From: Oscillospiraceae bacterium
GTDB lineage: Bacteria > Bacillota > Clostridia > Oscillospirales > Acutalibacteraceae
Reading direction: 5' to 3'
Assembly (NCBI GenBank): GCA_015065505.1
Contig: SVQE01000012.1
Coordinates: 1 to 46,000 of the forward strand
Length of the DNA stretch: 46,000 bases
Made by a program: the position numbers and the translations under genes. The notes beneath the pieces were generated by a model, which was not told where the DNA came from, did not search any database, and saw nothing but the letters and a program-made list of their open reading frames with translations. Below, one piece after another: positions 17,871 through 37,166 of this stretch (position 1 is its first letter; each line of letters opens with the position of its first letter).

Positions 17871-18713
17871 TTATTCAGCTGCTGCTTCTTCAACAACCTC
17901 TTCAGCTTCTGCTTCAATTTCGCCCTTCTTCTCTTTGAATAAAACGAATTTTTCCATCGGGAAGAGAACAACCATCTGAACGAAGCCTGCTGCAAGACCG
18001 CCGATTGTTCTTGCTGCACCTCTTATAACTTCACTGTTGAAGCTGCCAAGCCATCCGTAAAGAACGCCCTGAAGCCATGTTGAGAAGAGAATAAGAGCAA
18101 TCATAAGAACAATATAGATTGCAAACATATATTTAGGTGCATTGGTTTTGAAGGTTGTTTTCATATTCTGAATGTAGCCATAGATATTTGCAATAAGGTT
18201 TGAAAGGAAGAATGGAAGAAGGTAGCCCCATGTAACCGTTCCTGCAACAATCGAACCGTTTTGAATATCAAAACCAAGAACATACTTGCTGATATCGCTA
18301 TAAGTTGTGAGCTGAGTTTTGAAGATTTTGAACTCTTCAACACCGATAATGCCCTTAACGCTGTCCCAGTTATCGCGAACTGCATTTAAACCGTCATAAT
18401 TGAAAACAGTTACGCATTTTCTGATTGCCTCGGTTGCGGCGTCTATCCACTCACCGATGGGTGTTGTGAATACGGAAGCGTCAAAAATTGTGTTCGGTTT
18501 AAAAATTGCTGCCAGAAAATCAGGAAGTCCAACCTTGAATACTTCCATATCAAAGATAAGCGGAAGAACATTTGCAAGAACTAACTGAATGATTGTTACA
18601 AGACCGCTGACAACCATAAACTTAATGAGCTGCCAAAGCGTTTTCATAAACGAGCCTTTACCCTCAGCGGCATTATCTATTCCGCCAAGCGATATTTTTT
18701 TCTTTTCTGCCAT
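17871..18713 (-). CDS. GtrA-like multi-pass membrane protein
   Basis: The 280-residue protein has a helix pair near the N-terminus (LWQLIKFMVVSGLVTIIQLV) and a C-terminal portion with YMFAIYIVLMIALILFSTW and FPMEKFVLFKEKKG. The spaced halves resemble GtrA-type proteins, which move lipid-linked sugars in surface polysaccharide synthesis. A long insertion (about 60-190) makes it roughly twice the usual length. It ends in an acidic alanine/glutamate tail. Third gene in the operon after the hydrolase and the metallophosphoesterase. Assignment is moderate because GtrA is a weakly conserved family. Confidence 0.6.
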   Translation of the reverse strand: MAEKKKISLGGIDNAAEGKGSFMKTLWQLIKFMVVSGLVTIIQLVLANVLPLIFDMEVFKVGLPDFLAAIFKPNTIFDASVFTTPIGEWIDAATEAIRKCVTVFNYDGLNAVRDNWDSVKGIIGVEEFKIFKTQLTTYSDISKYVLGFDIQNGSIVAGTVTWGYLLPFFLSNLIANIYGYIQNMKTTFKTNAPKYMFAIYIVLMIALILFSTWLQGVLYGWLGSFNSEVIRGAARTIGGLAAGFVQMVVLFPMEKFVLFKEKKGEIEAEAEEVVEEAAAE

Positions 18714-23367: not shown

Positions 23368-24186
23368 ATGAATATTGATGCTAATGTTCAAAAAATAATA
23401 TTTGCAGTACTCAGAAGATGGAAACTGCTGGTAGTATTTGCGCTTATAGGTGTGCTTATGGGTTATTTCTACACCTCCCATTTCACAACACTCACCTATT
23501 CATCGGATGTTAAGTTCCTTGCTTATGCTGTTGACGGAAATGATGACCTTGGTGAAATCAGTCCATCTTCATCAAGCGGAAACTCAAACGAGTATGTTCG
23601 AACCAGTAACACAAGTAAGATGAACTACGCTATGAAAATGCTTCCGACCTACGTTGAGGTTATGAACACCAACGAATTTATGACGAAGGTTACGAATGCG
23701 CTCAACAAGAATCTTAATTCAAACTACTCAGTAGGAACAATCAAGAATTCCATTGAAATCGAGCTTATTGAAGACACTGCAATTTTTGATATGAAGGTTA
23801 CAACAACAAATGCTGAGCTTTCATATAACATTGCAAAGCAGCTTGAAACCTCTGTTCCTCAGATGATGAAGCAAACAAACAATTCACTTGTTCATGCATC
23901 AGTTCAGGATAAGGCTGTTAAGGCAGCATCCGCAGGAAGCCTCGGATATCCCAAGAAATGTGCAATCGGTGCAGTTATAGGAATTGTTATTGCAGCTGCA
24001 TATGTTGTTCTCAGAACTCTGTTTGATGTCAGAATCAAATCGAGCGACGAGCTTTCAGATAAGTATAACATTCCCGTTCTCGGTTCAATCCCGAACTTCA
24101 GTTCAGGCTCAACTCCGAGAGCAAATGTTCAGCAGGCTCAGGCTTCCGCAGAACAGAAACCCCAGCAGAAAGGAGAGGATAAATAA
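23368..24186 (+). CDS. Wzz-type polysaccharide chain-length regulator / BY-kinase activator
   Basis: The 272-residue protein has two membrane helices, near 17-36 (LLVVFALIGVLMGYFYT) and near 197-216 (CAIGAVIGIVIAAAYVVL), with an external loop between them. After the second helix comes FDVRIKSSDELSDKYNIPVL, the standard cytosolic tail of CapA/YwqC/CpsC proteins that binds and activates the partner kinase. Its stop codon overlaps the kinase ATG. Together with the kinase and the PHP phosphatase it controls capsule or exopolysaccharide export; the glycosyltransferases are not in this window. Confidence 0.9.
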   Translation: MNIDANVQKIIFAVLRRWKLLVVFALIGVLMGYFYTSHFTTLTYSSDVKFLAYAVDGNDDLGEISPSSSSGNSNEYVRTSNTSKMNYAMKMLPTYVEVMNTNEFMTKVTNALNKNLNSNYSVGTIKNSIEIELIEDTAIFDMKVTTTNAELSYNIAKQLETSVPQMMKQTNNSLVHASVQDKAVKAASAGSLGYPKKCAIGAVIGIVIAAAYVVLRTLFDVRIKSSDELSDKYNIPVLGSIPNFSSGSTPRANVQQAQASAEQKPQQKGEDK

Positions 24187-25241
24187 TGGCAAGAAGAAGA
24201 TCAAGAGAAAGAACAACTTCCAATACTTCAAGAACACTTATTCAAAACCTTGACATTAATCCAACCCTTAAATTCCGAGTTGAAGAAGCTTATAAGGGAA
24301 TAAGAGCTAACATAATGTTTTCCATTATGAAAAAGGGCTGTAAAACCATTGTTGTAACCTCCTCCGTTGCAGGTGAAGGTAAAACAACTACCACAATCAA
24401 CCTTGCAATTACATTTGCACAGGCAGGTCAGAAGGTTCTTCTTATAGACGCCGACCTCAGAAAACCCAAGGTTCACCATTACTTCTCCGTTCCCAACGCT
24501 CCCGGTCTTACAAATTATCTCGGTTCGAGCGTTATTGATTCATCAAGCGAAAAGGTTGATTTATTCAAGGTTGTTCACCCGACAGAATTTGAAAACCTTT
24601 CAATTATCTGTTCGGGAACAATTCCTCCCAACCCTGCAGAGCTTTTAGGTTCTGAGCCGATGGCTGATTTCCTTTCGGAAATTTCAAACGATTTCGACTA
24701 TATTATTATCGATACCCCGCCCATCAATATCGTATCCGACGCACTTCCTCTTATCAGAGAGTCGGATGGTGTAGTTCTTGTTGTTAAATACAATCAGTCA
24801 ACACATCCCGATGTTGAAAGAGCGCTCGGAACACTTGAATTCATCGATGCAAAGATTATCGGTTTCATCGTTAACTATGTTGAATCTGCATCGGGCGGAA
24901 AATATAAGTACAACTACTATCGCCGTTATTACGGAAGATACGGCTACGGTTACGGCTATGGCTACGGTGGATATGGCGGATACGGTGGCTACGGCGGTTA
25001 CGGTGGCTATGGCGGTTACGGTGGCTACGGTGGCTACGGCGGTTACGGCGGCTACGGCGGCTATGGCGGTTACGCTTCAGCACCTCAGCCCAAACCGTCG
25101 CCTGCTTCAAGTGCTCCTAATTACGGCAGCTATGGCAGCTACGGAAGCTATGGCAGTTATGGCAGCTACGGAAACTATGGTAACTACGGTAACTATAGTT
25201 CAGGCGGTTCAAAGGGCAGCCAGTACGACCCGAGAAAGTAA
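24186..25241 (+). CDS. CpsD/CapB-type tyrosine kinase with giant Gly/Ser-Tyr tail
   Basis: The kinase core (about 25-235) has EEAYKGIRANIMFS, the Walker A VAGEGKTTTT at 61-70, LLIDADLRKP at 85-94 and IIIDTPP at 173-179, as in bacterial tyrosine kinases that autophosphorylate on C-terminal tyrosines. Such tails normally carry a handful of tyrosines. Here residues 240-351 hold 33: a basic YKYNYYRRYY part, four GY, twelve GGY (261-296), a Pro/Ser/Ala spacer (297-311), five GSY, three GNY and a Ser/Gly-rich end. Gly and Tyr codons vary between units, so the repeat is kept as protein and is not a fresh duplication. The tail looks like an aromatic low-complexity domain. Confidence 0.95.
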   Translation: MARRRSRERTTSNTSRTLIQNLDINPTLKFRVEEAYKGIRANIMFSIMKKGCKTIVVTSSVAGEGKTTTTINLAITFAQAGQKVLLIDADLRKPKVHHYFSVPNAPGLTNYLGSSVIDSSSEKVDLFKVVHPTEFENLSIICSGTIPPNPAELLGSEPMADFLSEISNDFDYIIIDTPPINIVSDALPLIRESDGVVLVVKYNQSTHPDVERALGTLEFIDAKIIGFIVNYVESASGGKYKYNYYRRYYGRYGYGYGYGYGGYGGYGGYGGYGGYGGYGGYGGYGGYGGYGGYGGYASAPQPKPSPASSAPNYGSYGSYGSYGSYGSYGNYGNYGNYSSGGSKGSQYDPRK

Positions 25242-25300: not shown

Positions 25301-26017
25301 ATGATTATTAACAATTTAATTGAGATGCATTCTCATATACTTCCGGGTATTGACGATGGTTCTCAGAATATTGAAACAAGCCTTAAAATGATTGAAAGGC
25401 TTAAGGAACAGGGTGCTGTTAAAATACTCCTTACTCCTCATTATTATTCCGACACCATTTCGCTCGACGACTTTCTCAGAAAAAGAGAAGCCTCGTATAA
25501 TGCGCTCATAAATGAAATTCCAAGCGGATATCCCGAGTTGATTCCTGCTGCTGAAGTATTTATAAGCCAATACCTGTTTAATAACAAAAGTATAAAAGAT
25601 CTATGCGTTGGCAATTCAAACTATGTTTTGATTGAGCATCCGTTCTCTGCAAGGTTTGACGATAAGGATTACGACAGATTACTTAATCTCTACTGCGACT
25701 ATAAGGTTAAACCGATTCTTGCTCATATTGAAAGATACAGAGCATTAATGGAAGATAAGTATAAGCTTTCGGATTTAATTGAAATGGGTTGCCTTCCGCA
25801 GGTAAATGTCAGCACCTTTGATATTGCGCCAAGGCGCGTTAAAAAGAAGCTGTTCAAATTAATGAATGAAGGGCAGATAGCTCTGCTTGGCTCTGACTGC
25901 CATAATCTTGATACTCGCGCACCCGAATACGAAGCAGGAATTAATGCAATTATTAGTGAATGCGGTATGGGCGCGGTTGATACGCTTATGAGAAATGCAG
26001 CTGCATTATTAAGTTAA
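25301..26017 (+). CDS. PHP-family protein-tyrosine phosphatase (CpsB/YwqE type)
   Basis: The 238-residue protein shows the PHP metal motifs MHSHILPGIDDG at 9-20, LLTPHYYSD, PAAEVFIS, PILAHIERY and GSDCHN. This is the manganese-dependent phosphatase that removes phosphates from the tail of the partner tyrosine kinase. It follows the kinase by about 60 bases and ends with a strong terminator, so the activator, kinase and phosphatase form a complete three-gene regulatory unit. The large number of tyrosines in the kinase tail would give this enzyme an unusually dense substrate. Confidence 0.94.
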   Translation: MIINNLIEMHSHILPGIDDGSQNIETSLKMIERLKEQGAVKILLTPHYYSDTISLDDFLRKREASYNALINEIPSGYPELIPAAEVFISQYLFNNKSIKDLCVGNSNYVLIEHPFSARFDDKDYDRLLNLYCDYKVKPILAHIERYRALMEDKYKLSDLIEMGCLPQVNVSTFDIAPRRVKKKLFKLMNEGQIALLGSDCHNLDTRAPEYEAGINAIISECGMGAVDTLMRNAAALLS

Positions 26018-28181: not shown

Positions 28182-30062
28182 TTAGTCAGCGTCGCCGTTG
28201 TACTGAAAATCATCGTAATAATTTCTGTTGTAATCGTTGCCGCCGTCAGAACGGTCTTCCTCATAATCATCTATGGAATAATAGCTTTTTGCAAATTCAT
28301 CCCTCTCAGATTGAGAAAGGTTTTTATAGTATTGCTTGATTGAGTTGAAAGCAATCTGCTTTGTTAGGTTATATGCTCTGAAATTTCTGCTTTCATCGCT
28401 TTGTATAACAGCGGTGTTCTTTTCATTCAAAAGCAAATCCTCGTTATCAATAATAATCATAGCAAGCTCATCCTTTGCTTCCTCGGCAATATTCTTATCA
28501 TCGCTTTCGGTTAAATCAATAAGATAAGGCACTGCGCTTTCGGAAAGATTTGCTATTGCTTCAACATCGAGGTCTTCAATTTTGCCCGAGTTATACGCAT
28601 TAATGTTATAATCGGCAATTCTTGTATCAATATCTGCAAAGGTTAAAGCAATAAATATTGCCGAGCAGATAATGATTACGGGTTTAATATAATTAACCTT
28701 CGGTGTGATGATGTGAAGAATAAAGAATGCAACAACCACAACCATCATAACCATAAAGGTTGAAACAAGAATTCTGTTAACTGAAAGTCCGTATATGCCG
28801 ATATTAACGCTCATCTTCTGCATTGCAATAACAATAAGCAAAATTGAGAACATCAATATGAATGATGATAGTGCTTTAATTAATGCGGGAATCTTTTTAT
28901 TCTTGCGTTCGCTTAGCATTATTACGCCCGAAATCAATGCAATATTTATAACGCTGATAATGAACATTTCGTAGAAGCCCCTTCTTGCAAAGGCGCTTGC
29001 AGTATGCTCATAGCCTTCTGGAAGAATTCCCCTGAAAACGCTGAATAAATAAGCAAGCTGTGACACAATGTAAATTAAATATGTTATAGAAATAACGCTC
29101 AAAAATGATGTTATTATAGTTGAAGGAACCTTTTTAGCTTCATTTCTGTAGCTTGCTTGCTTCTTATCCCTTCTGTTTCTTCTCTTTTCAAAGAGATAAG
29201 AATAAACAAACGGAAGCAGAATTGCGGCAAAGATAACCTCAACAATATAAGACCTAATATCAATGCCGATTGTTGAAATCAAGCCTTCGAATGCTGCATC
29301 ACCCTTCTTGAGAAGCGGAATAACAACAAGCAAAACAGGAATAGCAAGAAGAACGCCTATAAGCACACCGTGATTGATTTTGTTGCCTTTTTTCCTTGCC
29401 TTTGTTGCATTGTGAACCTTGCCGAAGTTTTCAAACGGAGCAACAATAACCGATGACGCAACATCGAAAATCAGCTTAAAGCTGCCCTGATGAGTTGAAA
29501 ATCCTTTACTGATTCCCAGACAGTAGATTGCATAGAGTGCAAATATAATTAAGACGGATAACGGCTTAATTATGCTGTTTGTGTAAAGCATACAGCCAAC
29601 GCTCAGTGCAACCGACATTGCGCCGCAGGTTATCGGGAAAAGCTTTTGCTCTGTTTTTTTATCGTAAATAAATAATGTTGAAATAATAAACTGTATTACA
29701 TATGAAATAGTGAAGCCGAGTGAAAATCCGTAGAAAACAGAAAAATCAAGGAATATAAACAAGCCTGCAAGAATTATGTATCTGAACACGCTTTCATAAT
29801 CACTCATAGCACTGTGAGTCGGTTTCAGCTGCGGCTGCTGAACAGGAGCATAGTAGCTCTGCTGCGGCTGCTGATAGTAGTAACCCTGCTGATAAACGGG
29901 CTGCTGCTGATAGTAATATCCGCCTTGCTGCGGCTGCTGATAATAATAGCCCTGAGGAGGAACATTCTGTCCTCTCGGAGGCACTGCTTGACCCTGGGGG
30001 CGGTTATAGGCGCCCTGCTGAGGCTGATTATTAGCATTTTGCTGATAAGGGTTTTGGTTCAT
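28182..30062 (-). CDS. DUF4153/DUF4173-like membrane protein with Gln/Tyr-rich N-terminus
   Basis: The first 80 or so residues are low complexity: Gln, Tyr, Pro, Asn and Gly dominate, with runs such as GYYYQQPQQ repeated. About a dozen membrane helices follow. AFARRGFYEMFIISVINI is typical of DUF4153/DUF4173 proteins, and the C-terminal part is acidic and soluble with a Tyr/Asp/Asn-rich end. Function of the family is unknown. The gene follows a DUF2975 gene and a small XRE regulator, starting two bases after the latter ends, which implies one operon under that regulator. Confidence 0.8.
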   Translation of the reverse strand: MNQNPYQQNANNQPQQGAYNRPQGQAVPPRGQNVPPQGYYYQQPQQGGYYYQQQPVYQQGYYYQQPQQSYYAPVQQPQLKPTHSAMSDYESVFRYIILAGLFIFLDFSVFYGFSLGFTISYVIQFIISTLFIYDKKTEQKLFPITCGAMSVALSVGCMLYTNSIIKPLSVLIIFALYAIYCLGISKGFSTHQGSFKLIFDVASSVIVAPFENFGKVHNATKARKKGNKINHGVLIGVLLAIPVLLVVIPLLKKGDAAFEGLISTIGIDIRSYIVEVIFAAILLPFVYSYLFEKRRNRRDKKQASYRNEAKKVPSTIITSFLSVISITYLIYIVSQLAYLFSVFRGILPEGYEHTASAFARRGFYEMFIISVINIALISGVIMLSERKNKKIPALIKALSSFILMFSILLIVIAMQKMSVNIGIYGLSVNRILVSTFMVMMVVVVAFFILHIITPKVNYIKPVIIICSAIFIALTFADIDTRIADYNINAYNSGKIEDLDVEAIANLSESAVPYLIDLTESDDKNIAEEAKDELAMIIIDNEDLLLNEKNTAVIQSDESRNFRAYNLTKQIAFNSIKQYYKNLSQSERDEFAKSYYSIDDYEEDRSDGGNDYNRNYYDDFQYNGDAD

Positions 30063-35715: not shown

Positions 35716-37140
35716 TTAACGCTTTTTCTTCAAGAACTTTGTTAAAATAAGACCTGCAAGCTCTTTAATCGGCTTGATGTTAACAAGCACCATTGCAAGC
35801 ACAAGCGCTGCTTCAATGGCATACATAACCACGCCTGTTTTCATTATAAGCATAACCGCACACTGTGCAGCAAGAACAGCAAATTCTGCCGCAAGCAGCG
35901 GAGTGTTGAACTTAATTTTGATATATCTTCTTGTATTTAATCCTCTTGAAGCGAAAACAACAATGAACGAAATAACCGTTGCAACAGCAGCGCCCACTGC
36001 ACCAATTCTCGGAATAAGAATTAAGTTGAGCACAACATTTGTTGCCGCACCCGAAAGCGCCGTAACCATTGCCATAACGCTTTTCTTTTCAGCCATATAA
36101 ACTGAAGCAAGGAAATTAACAAGGCAGCTCATAGAGGTTGCCATAACAAGAATGGGAACATACTGCCACGAATCGTAGAACGCCTTTGAAACAAGGATTT
36201 TTGTGAAGAACTGGCACAGAAGAATAAGCATTGATGCCGCCGCAAATATTCCGCCCGAATAAACTCTGAAAACCTTTGTGAAAAAGTCTGCCTTATCTTC
36301 ACTTTCATATTCATCAACAGCCGAAAGCTGCCATGCATCAATGAATATTGAAGAAAACATTATTATGAAATTGGGGATTTTTGATGCCGCTGTGTAAAGT
36401 CCGTTTGCAGATGAATCAATGAATCCCGTTACCATATATCTATCCGAAACATTGATAACCCACCAGAGAATAATCGTAGGCATAAGCGGAACGGAGTATT
36501 TAAGCATATCGCGCTTAAGCTTTTTCTCGATTTTGCCGAAGGAAACATATCTCCAGAGCTTCTGGGTTATGAAGAAGAAAACAATGGAGCACGCATCGGA
36601 TGCGATAATTGCAACGATGTATCCCGTAACGCCCCACTTAAACGGACCGAGGAAGAGAATTGTAAAAAGCAGAGTTGTTGCAGTTGCAATAATTCCGTCT
36701 ATTGCAAAGGTTTTAACATGCCCCATACCTCGAACAAACTGCTGGCAGAGCTGCCTTGTTCCCGAAACGAGAACAAAAACATATATCAGAATAATATAGT
36801 CGCCGAGTTTGAAATCGTTAATTGTTATTTTGCTTAAAGGATATGCAAATAAAAGGAAAACTATGAAGCCCTGAATAGTTGTTCTCACACCGACGGTGAA
36901 AACGCCCCTCTTATCCGCAGCCTTATCAAGCGCAAAACGAAGCGCCGCGCTGTTTATCTGCAAAAACACAATCGGTATTAAAACATTTGCCGTTTGCTGA
37001 ACAAGGTCCGCCGCACCGTATTCCCCCGTTTGCATCATTCGGGTTACAAACGGCATAAGCAGGAAGCTCAGCACCTTTGATGAAAAGGTTCCGATTGCAA
37101 ATATTAATGTATTTGTCGCCAGTTTTTTATACTTATCCAT
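35716..37140 (-). CDS. polysaccharide flippase (Wzx/MATE-like, MOP superfamily)
   Basis: ATG 37140 has gaggtaatt just upstream; an ATG five codons earlier lacks it. The 474-residue protein has about 12-14 membrane helices, the N-terminal TLIFAIGTFSSKVLSFLLMP and TGEYGAADLVQQTANVLIPI, and WWVINVSDRYMVTGFID mid-protein. These are typical of lipid-linked oligosaccharide flippases. The substrate is probably a surface polysaccharide unit, which would fit with the kinase module 10 kb away, but no glycosyltransferases are adjacent. Confidence 0.9.
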   Translation of the reverse strand: MDKYKKLATNTLIFAIGTFSSKVLSFLLMPFVTRMMQTGEYGAADLVQQTANVLIPIVFLQINSAALRFALDKAADKRGVFTVGVRTTIQGFIVFLLFAYPLSKITINDFKLGDYIILIYVFVLVSGTRQLCQQFVRGMGHVKTFAIDGIIATATTLLFTILFLGPFKWGVTGYIVAIIASDACSIVFFFITQKLWRYVSFGKIEKKLKRDMLKYSVPLMPTIILWWVINVSDRYMVTGFIDSSANGLYTAASKIPNFIIMFSSIFIDAWQLSAVDEYESEDKADFFTKVFRVYSGGIFAAASMLILLCQFFTKILVSKAFYDSWQYVPILVMATSMSCLVNFLASVYMAEKKSVMAMVTALSGAATNVVLNLILIPRIGAVGAAVATVISFIVVFASRGLNTRRYIKIKFNTPLLAAEFAVLAAQCAVMLIMKTGVVMYAIEAALVLAMVLVNIKPIKELAGLILTKFLKKKR

Positions 37141-37166
37141 AATTACCTCAAACAATTATAACCGAT

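Follow-up and report, generated by a model that had tools for sequence, protein, structure and literature searches.

Why does a stand-alone bacterial tyrosine kinase end in a tail with 33 tyrosines, and is such a tail a new kind of appendage or a known one made larger? The kinase is encoded by the open reading frame at 24186-25241 (+ strand; 351 aa) of the window, by which we mean the whole 46,000-nucleotide stretch of gut bacterial DNA analyzed here. It is a BY-kinase of the CpsD/CapB type, and it lies between an adaptor gene and a phosphatase gene. The relevant features are:

23368..24186, + strand: Wzz/CapA-type membrane adaptor, 272 aa (TIGR01006, E 1e-18, 67.6 bits with a cut-off of 296; PF02706, 5e-5, just under its cut-off)
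24186..24902, + strand: BY-kinase core (TIGR01007, E 6.9e-57, above the curated cut-off; Walker A, A' and B present)
24903..24965, + strand: proximal basic tyrosine cluster YKYNYYRRYYGRYGYGYGYGY, residues 240-260 (from the sequence)
24966..25073, + strand: (GGY)12 array, residues 261-296 (from the sequence)
25074..25121, + strand: Pro/Ser/Ala spacer ASAPQPKPSPASSAPN, residues 297-312 (from the sequence)
25122..25196, + strand: Y(GSY)5(GNY)3 array, residues 313-337 (from the sequence)
25197..25241, + strand: C-terminal piece SSGGSKGSQYDPRK and stop codon (from the sequence)
25301..26017, + strand: CpsB/CapC-type PHP tyrosine phosphatase, 238 aa (PF19567, 5.4e-39, above cut-off)

Based on the results below, we conclude that the tail is real and clearly delimited, that among the kinases read it is extreme for its family, and that its tyrosines are under selection; in kind it is an enlarged version of a known domain.

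The body of the protein is a recognizable tyrosine autokinase. It scored 192.3 bits against TIGR01007 (polysaccharide biosynthesis tyrosine autokinase; cut-off 108.05) and contains SSVAGEGKTTTT, LLIDADLRKPK, and DYIIIDTPP, which we take to be the Walker A, A', and B motifs. Residues G65, K66, T67, D88, D90, and D176 were invariant across 28 orthologues, and the kinase can be aligned to the CapA/CapB chains. A search of PDB sequences returned 4jmp (8.9e-41), and Foldseek with the predicted model returned 4jmp (CapA2B2; E 1.6e-19) and Wzc 3la6 (3.2e-19). The AlphaFold2 model (28 orthologues) had a mean pLDDT of 63.2; the core was mostly confident, with most ten-residue blocks at 68-93 and a drop to 56 at residues 201-210. 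Residues 233-346, where pLDDT was below 50, are predicted to be disordered.

The tail is built from a small number of tyrosine-containing units. Residues 240-351 (24903-25238) make up 112 residues, among them 33 Tyr, 40 Gly, and 13 Ser, in 12 GGY, 5 GSY, and 3 GNY units; GY occurs 16 times in total, four of them outside GGY. These are exactly the counts given in a preliminary description of this DNA (33 Tyr, four GY, twelve GGY, five GSY, three GNY), which had called the protein a CpsD-like kinase with an exceptional number of tyrosines, as the TIGR01007 match and the tyrosine count both bear out. The C-terminal tyrosine cluster is a putative site of autophosphorylation. Read in the other register, G[GSN]Y is YG[GSN], of which there are 20 tandem units in residues 240-351, and we therefore classify the tail as a YGX domain that has grown rather than as a novel type of appendage. 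Counted from the end of the core, as in the comparisons below, the tail is 121 aa long with 34 Tyr, 24 YG[GSNTAY] units, and two acidic residues. A search of the proteins of the same genome with the tail as query found, at the sensitivity of that search, only the kinase itself and no other GGY-rich protein. In the open-licence literature we found nothing on YGX repeat kinases or on tandem-repeat tyrosine clusters in BY-kinases.

Within the [Eubacterium] coprostanoligenes genus, the same gene has tails of very different lengths. Of 80 genomes of this genus (the window's own included), 72 had a match at E<=1e-20 and 60 had an orthologue, defined as at least 63% identical. The genus takes in [Eubacterium] coprostanoligenes ATCC 51222 (L092; core 74% identical) and assemblies named for goat, sheep, deer, and rabbit samples, among others. 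We read 62 rows of orthologues, of which two came from other genera, and removed L009, L045, and L061 (frame changes), L014 (fusion), and L065 (contig end), leaving 57 clean tails (55 from the genus, with L158 and L102 from outside). These were 21-141 aa long (median 56) with 7-38 Tyr (median 15), and the number of tyrosines followed tail length (r=0.96) at a density of 0.20-0.38. Over 922 intervals, the spacing from one tyrosine to the next was 3 in 488 cases and 2 in 298. No clean row had a tail without tyrosine, and the first 30 tail residues held 5-12 Tyr in every one. At the short end, 8 of the 57 rows had tails of 21-30 aa with 7-9 Tyr, and the five of these that were checked all lie within the same trio of adaptor, kinase, and CpsB genes. 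A conserved C-terminal docking motif was considered and rejected; Y[DEN]P[RK] ends only 20 of the 57 clean tails.

Tail length has moved more than once and is still changing. In a tree that omitted L057 (a clean tail, with its start cut) and L065, tails of at least 100 aa formed one supported clade of 11 rows (96/92), including the frame-changed L009 and the fused L014. The eight rows with tails below 35 aa fell in another part of the tree, intermixed with tails of 42-63 aa, and length has therefore moved in both directions or repeatedly. Close relatives with cores 94-96% identical had tails of 121, 129, and 141 aa, compared with 121 aa in the window's kinase, so length is still changing. The tail of a paralogue, kinase B, was 24-33 aa in all nine genus genomes in which it was read; eight of the nine also carry the gene for the long-tail kinase, the exception being G041. 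Elsewhere in the genus, L072 (G058:C1:198000-213000) has three further, distant BY-kinase copies within 15 kb, in frames of 431-511 aa; two of the three copies end in tyrosine-containing tails.

The array might have been made by short-read assembly of a repeat, which we regard as very improbable. The assemblies are metagenomic, three relatives (L009, L045, L061) have a frame change within the array, and L014/L080 is joined to an unrelated frame. Against this, clean tails of at least 100 aa recur in nine assemblies besides the window's own, and E. coprostanoligenes ATCC 51222, by its genome record, also has a long tail (80 aa with 23 Tyr). We therefore rejected assembly as the cause of the tail. 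Chance is excluded as well, by the recurrence of the reading frame and its Tyr/Gly-rich tail over the 57 clean rows (own included). In the three frame-changed relatives, the proper frame continues after the change, in a different reading frame, to the usual end, which could be assembly error or phase variation. In L014/L080 (G043, contig C76), the GGY array of the kinase continues into a second, unrelated protein that is rich in Gly and includes a TPR-like stretch; Pfam matches only the kinase part, and the CpsB gene of G043 begins at base 2 of another contig. This fusion probably reflects misassembly across a Gly/Tyr repeat common to the two sequences.

Tyrosine-rich tails are found well beyond the genus, mostly in shorter form. 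Our comparison set contained 60 Bacillota kinases, with searches of the family, the order, and the phylum supplying 20 apiece, chosen by hand down the listed E-value rankings and not by length, with frames longer than 400 aa left out; five of these kinases (G230, G311, G404, G487, G516) had been picked earlier as long frames, so that any bias would be toward long tails. The median tail was 32.5 aa (16-98) with a median of 8 Tyr (2-18), and none of the 60 had a tail of at least 100 aa or at least 19 Tyr. Three or more consecutive YG. units were present in 2, 4, and 0 of the 20 kinases from the family, order, and phylum, respectively, and a YYYY run in 2, 0, and 14. Targeted searches for long frames in the family found two enlarged tails: one of (GGGY)n, 134 aa with 31 Tyr, in L188 (G330; core 38% identical), and one of GGY and GY, 104 aa with 21 Tyr, in L163. 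The G330 kinase (L208, 6356-7498, - strand) likewise belongs to a trio of adaptor, kinase, and CpsB genes, with dnaA/dnaN and further housekeeping genes close by. Two other kinases of L188's genus, matched by genus and not as orthologues, had tails of 24 aa with 5 Tyr (L227) and 41 aa with 12 Tyr (L192). Other units seen in distant kinases were (GRY)n (L190, L193) and GKYY (L199). Twenty long frames were picked among the matches listed from 291 genomes of the class, and L289, mis-cut by the profile, was left out; among these matches, the longest tail was 157 aa with 22 Tyr, and the remaining 18 were 43-129 aa with 4-18 Tyr, many with a charged, tyrosine-poor end. Clostridia thus commonly have Tyr/Gly tails, and among the kinases read those of the window's clade are the extreme in tyrosine number. 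The preliminary description had set the tail against the short tyrosine clusters of known BY-kinases, but the tail has a precedent: it expands the YGX unit already known, in a genus where lengths form a continuum (21-141 aa), and other members of the order and class also have tails rich in Tyr and Gly.

The tyrosines of the tails are maintained by selection on the protein. Transitions in a TAY codon give His at the first base and Cys at the second, and are silent at the third. Across the 57 clean tails there are 991 Tyr and 12 His, and Cys is absent; because the rows share ancestry, these counts do not represent independent events. Among tyrosine neighbors at a spacing of 3, the third base differed in 123 of 302 pairs. 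Third bases have changed while tyrosine has been kept, from which it follows that tyrosine is held by selection on the protein. The earlier claims of unlike synonymous codons between units (TAC 21 and TAT 12; GGC 22, GGT 13, and GGA 5 in the window's tail) and of selection on the protein are both confirmed. Tails used 675 TAC and 316 TAT, compared with 99 TAC and 211 TAT in the cores. The 30 other genes of the window used 381 TAT and 186 TAC overall, but 3 TAT and 27 TAC ahead of GGN; this context preference explains the TAC bias of the tails, which we rejected as a sign of special translation.

Recent duplication has contributed to some tails without marking most. The longest exact repeat in the window's array was 7 codons, compared with a mean of 5.5 in synonymous shuffles (p=0.18), and lag tests were not significant; recent slippage was rejected as the whole cause. 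Among the 41 tails tested, all 50 aa or longer, six (L010, L057, L022, L038, L035, and L047) exceeded synonymous shuffles in long exact repeats at p<=0.05, where about 2 are expected by chance. The preliminary description had named tailless relatives and a codon pattern of recent slippage as evidence that would speak against its reading, and each was found in part. Eight rows have tails of only 21-30 aa, and every clean row retains tyrosine; six tails have the repeat excess, and the window's own does not.

The chief rival to the multisite autophosphorylation that we favor below is tolerated drift of the repeat. On that account, the proximal tyrosine cluster works by itself, slippage lengthens and shortens a slack distal YGX array, and selection removes only frameshifts, stops, and harmful substitutions; we consider both parts of this possible but doubtful. 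It would fit the eight tails of 21-30 aa (the five checked lie in the same trio), the tails of 121, 129, and 141 aa on cores 94-96% identical, the repeat excess in 6 of 41 tails, and the 5-12 Tyr held within the first 30 residues of all 57 clean tails. However, it is tyrosine specifically that is retained against His and Cys, and 35 of the 41 arrays have no excess of exact repeats. The constancy of kinase B at 24-33 aa in the nine genomes read and the enlarged tails of other units in distant kinases also argue against it.

The kinase is one of a trio of genes that is kept across the genus. The kinase ATG overlaps the stop codon of the adaptor gene (TAATG), and translation of the two is therefore probably coupled. 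The kinase and phosphatase had been placed in one operon, and we found them adjacent with the adaptor as well, the TIGR01006, TIGR01007, and PF19567 matches lying side by side. At 34 named loci of the genus, queried with the window's own proteins only, an adaptor homologue was present in 33 of 34 and CpsB in 32 of 34, the gaps being contig ends or a chimeric contig. Upstream of the trio, 22 of the 34 loci have a divergent gene for a GH63/trehalase-like glycoside hydrolase, which elsewhere is absent or past the contig. CpsB was found in 66 of the 80 genus genomes, as a single copy in 59 of those 66. In G041 (L202, C3:60000-72000), CpsB is kept, and the long-tail kinase and its adaptor were not detected around it. 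L204 is uninformative on neighborhood, as its CpsB begins at base 120 of the contig.

The neighbors of the trio do not point to polysaccharide export, which the preliminary description had suggested. In the window, no polysaccharide-synthesis gene adjoins the trio, which is flanked by the glycoside hydrolase gene and, downstream, by a YlbJ-like gene and a DNA/RNA endonuclease gene. The closest polysaccharide-type matches in the window were a flippase-like protein (35716-37155, 10 kb away) and a GtrA-like protein (17871-18713, below cut-off). Contig C78 does carry an EPS-type cluster, that of kinase B, in which no CpsB was found; the short-tailed kinase there (252-aa ORF) has its own adaptor and adjoins a sugar transferase and a glycosyltransferase (by reading), followed by glycosyltransferases and a Wzx-like protein (Pfam). 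The window's CpsB gene (25301..26017) is the sole PF19567 match in its assembly, which is 89% complete, and we think it plausible that CpsB serves both kinases. We do not claim a general link between a long tail and a free-standing trio: only two loci, the window and L208, were read with Pfam, and our EPS-gene detector (six query proteins) was too insensitive, with up- and downstream labels unreliable for overlapping stop-to-stop frames. In the open-licence literature we found nothing on exopolysaccharide and tyrosine kinase in Eubacterium coprostanoligenes. A few kb from the kinase gene, at 28182-30062 (- strand), the window encodes a DUF4153 membrane protein with a Gln/Pro/Tyr-rich N-terminus (about 14 Tyr in its first 75 residues, by eye), which could be a substrate or partner of the kinase.

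We think, with slightly better than even confidence, that the tail serves the kinase for multisite autophosphorylation, as a YGX domain whose usual few tyrosines have increased to 33, with CpsB as its reset. By analogy with Wzc and CapB, the tail would be phosphorylated in trans by neighboring subunits of an adaptor-kinase ring and dephosphorylated by CpsB, and the decisive quantity would be the extent of phosphorylation and no single site. More copies of a nearly site-independent acceptor could then give a higher maximum charge and a response that is more graded or more thresholded. If the acceptor is nearly independent of site, copy number would be free to drift while selection preserves the identity of tyrosine. 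All 57 clean tails have the proximal basic cluster, which is likely the core substrate, and the distal array may be an amplifier of variable size. This reading draws support from the family and fold of the kinase, the tracking of tyrosine number with length, the retention of tyrosine, the conservation of the trio, the enlargement of other units in distant kinases, and the short tail of paralogue B. The five checked short tails (21-30 aa, 7-9 Tyr) are in the same trio, so a large array is not needed for the basic function, whatever that may be. Two further points count against this reading: in Wzc, phosphorylation reaches into the neighbor's active site over a short tail, and perhaps not all 33 sites would be within such reach; and the window's trio is without an adjoining polysaccharide-synthesis gene.

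The composition of the tail would also fit a different role, compatible with multisite autophosphorylation, in which the bare YGX array would associate with itself through tyrosine (and the proximal Arg and Lys) as a condensate or gel, clustering membrane complexes. Autophosphorylation would dissolve the assembly and CpsB would restore it. We consider clustering and its reversal alike to be unlikely. Consistent with them are the 33 Tyr in 112 residues with Gly/Ser spacers, the two acidic residues in the 121-aa tail, its predicted disorder, and the kinase and phosphatase in one gene cluster; there is also a precedent in ALIX, whose condensates, as passages of PMC10348681 describe, are dissolved by Src and reformed with PTP1B. 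However, the eukaryotic precedents are different proteins, and the continuum down to 7-9 Tyr would confine any condensate role to part of the genus. Titles and abstracts of the open-licence literature yielded no work tying BY-kinases or Wzc to phase separation or condensates. Combining the two roles, the tail could be a bacterial counterpart of the polymerase CTD, both substrate and multivalent scaffold: without phosphate it would condense the adaptor-kinase complexes, and once phosphorylated it would disperse them. Its repeat number would have been tuned by evolution, with separate enlargements in two or more genera of the family, on each occasion within a free-standing trio untied to one polysaccharide cluster. 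We offer this as speculation with a low probability.

Whichever role applies, one genus carries this gene in versions ranging from 7 to 38 tyrosines at near-equal density, a natural dose series for the number of phosphate sites. The series bears on why BY-kinases need many phosphorylatable tyrosines, with extent and not site decisive, and it opens the role of tyrosine number, whether in disassembly of the ring or in self-association, to direct tests. It also adds a bacterial case of a low-complexity array joined to the enzyme that modifies that array.

One of the closest known systems is CpsD; it belongs to a capsule cluster, and CpsB is its partner phosphatase. Like CpsD, the window's kinase is a stand-alone Firmicute BY-kinase with a membrane modulator, YGX tyrosine acceptors at the extreme C-terminus, and a CpsB phosphatase. 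Unlike CpsD, it has about 20 YG[GSN] units instead of four, and its trio adjoins no capsule cluster. The (YGX)4 domain of pneumococcal CpsD is named in the title of Morona 2003, cited in PMC4574921, and passages of the latter describe three phosphorylated tyrosines. The separate adaptor and kinase chains resemble CapA/CapB of Staphylococcus aureus, the best PDB match in both sequence and fold, whose tyrosine-rich tail (PMC8285477) is shorter than that of the window's kinase. Wzc of E. coli shares the kinase fold and a tyrosine-rich tail in which the extent of phosphorylation matters, but has adaptor and kinase in one chain and a short tail. According to passages of PMC8285477 and PMC11986026, that tail is about 15-17 residues long, phosphorylation begins near the C-terminal end and proceeds sequentially, species with 3, 4, or 5 phosphates are seen, the extent of phosphorylation and not the individual tyrosine matters, and phosphorylation converts octamers to monomers. 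By analogy, 33 near-equivalent sites are what such a rule would allow to grow. The RNA polymerase II CTD and the FUS-type [G/S]Y[G/S] domains are tandem phosphoacceptor units of low complexity whose copy number varies among species. The window's tail would resemble them in working only, as they are unrelated and are served by other kinases, and condensation of the tail is hypothetical.
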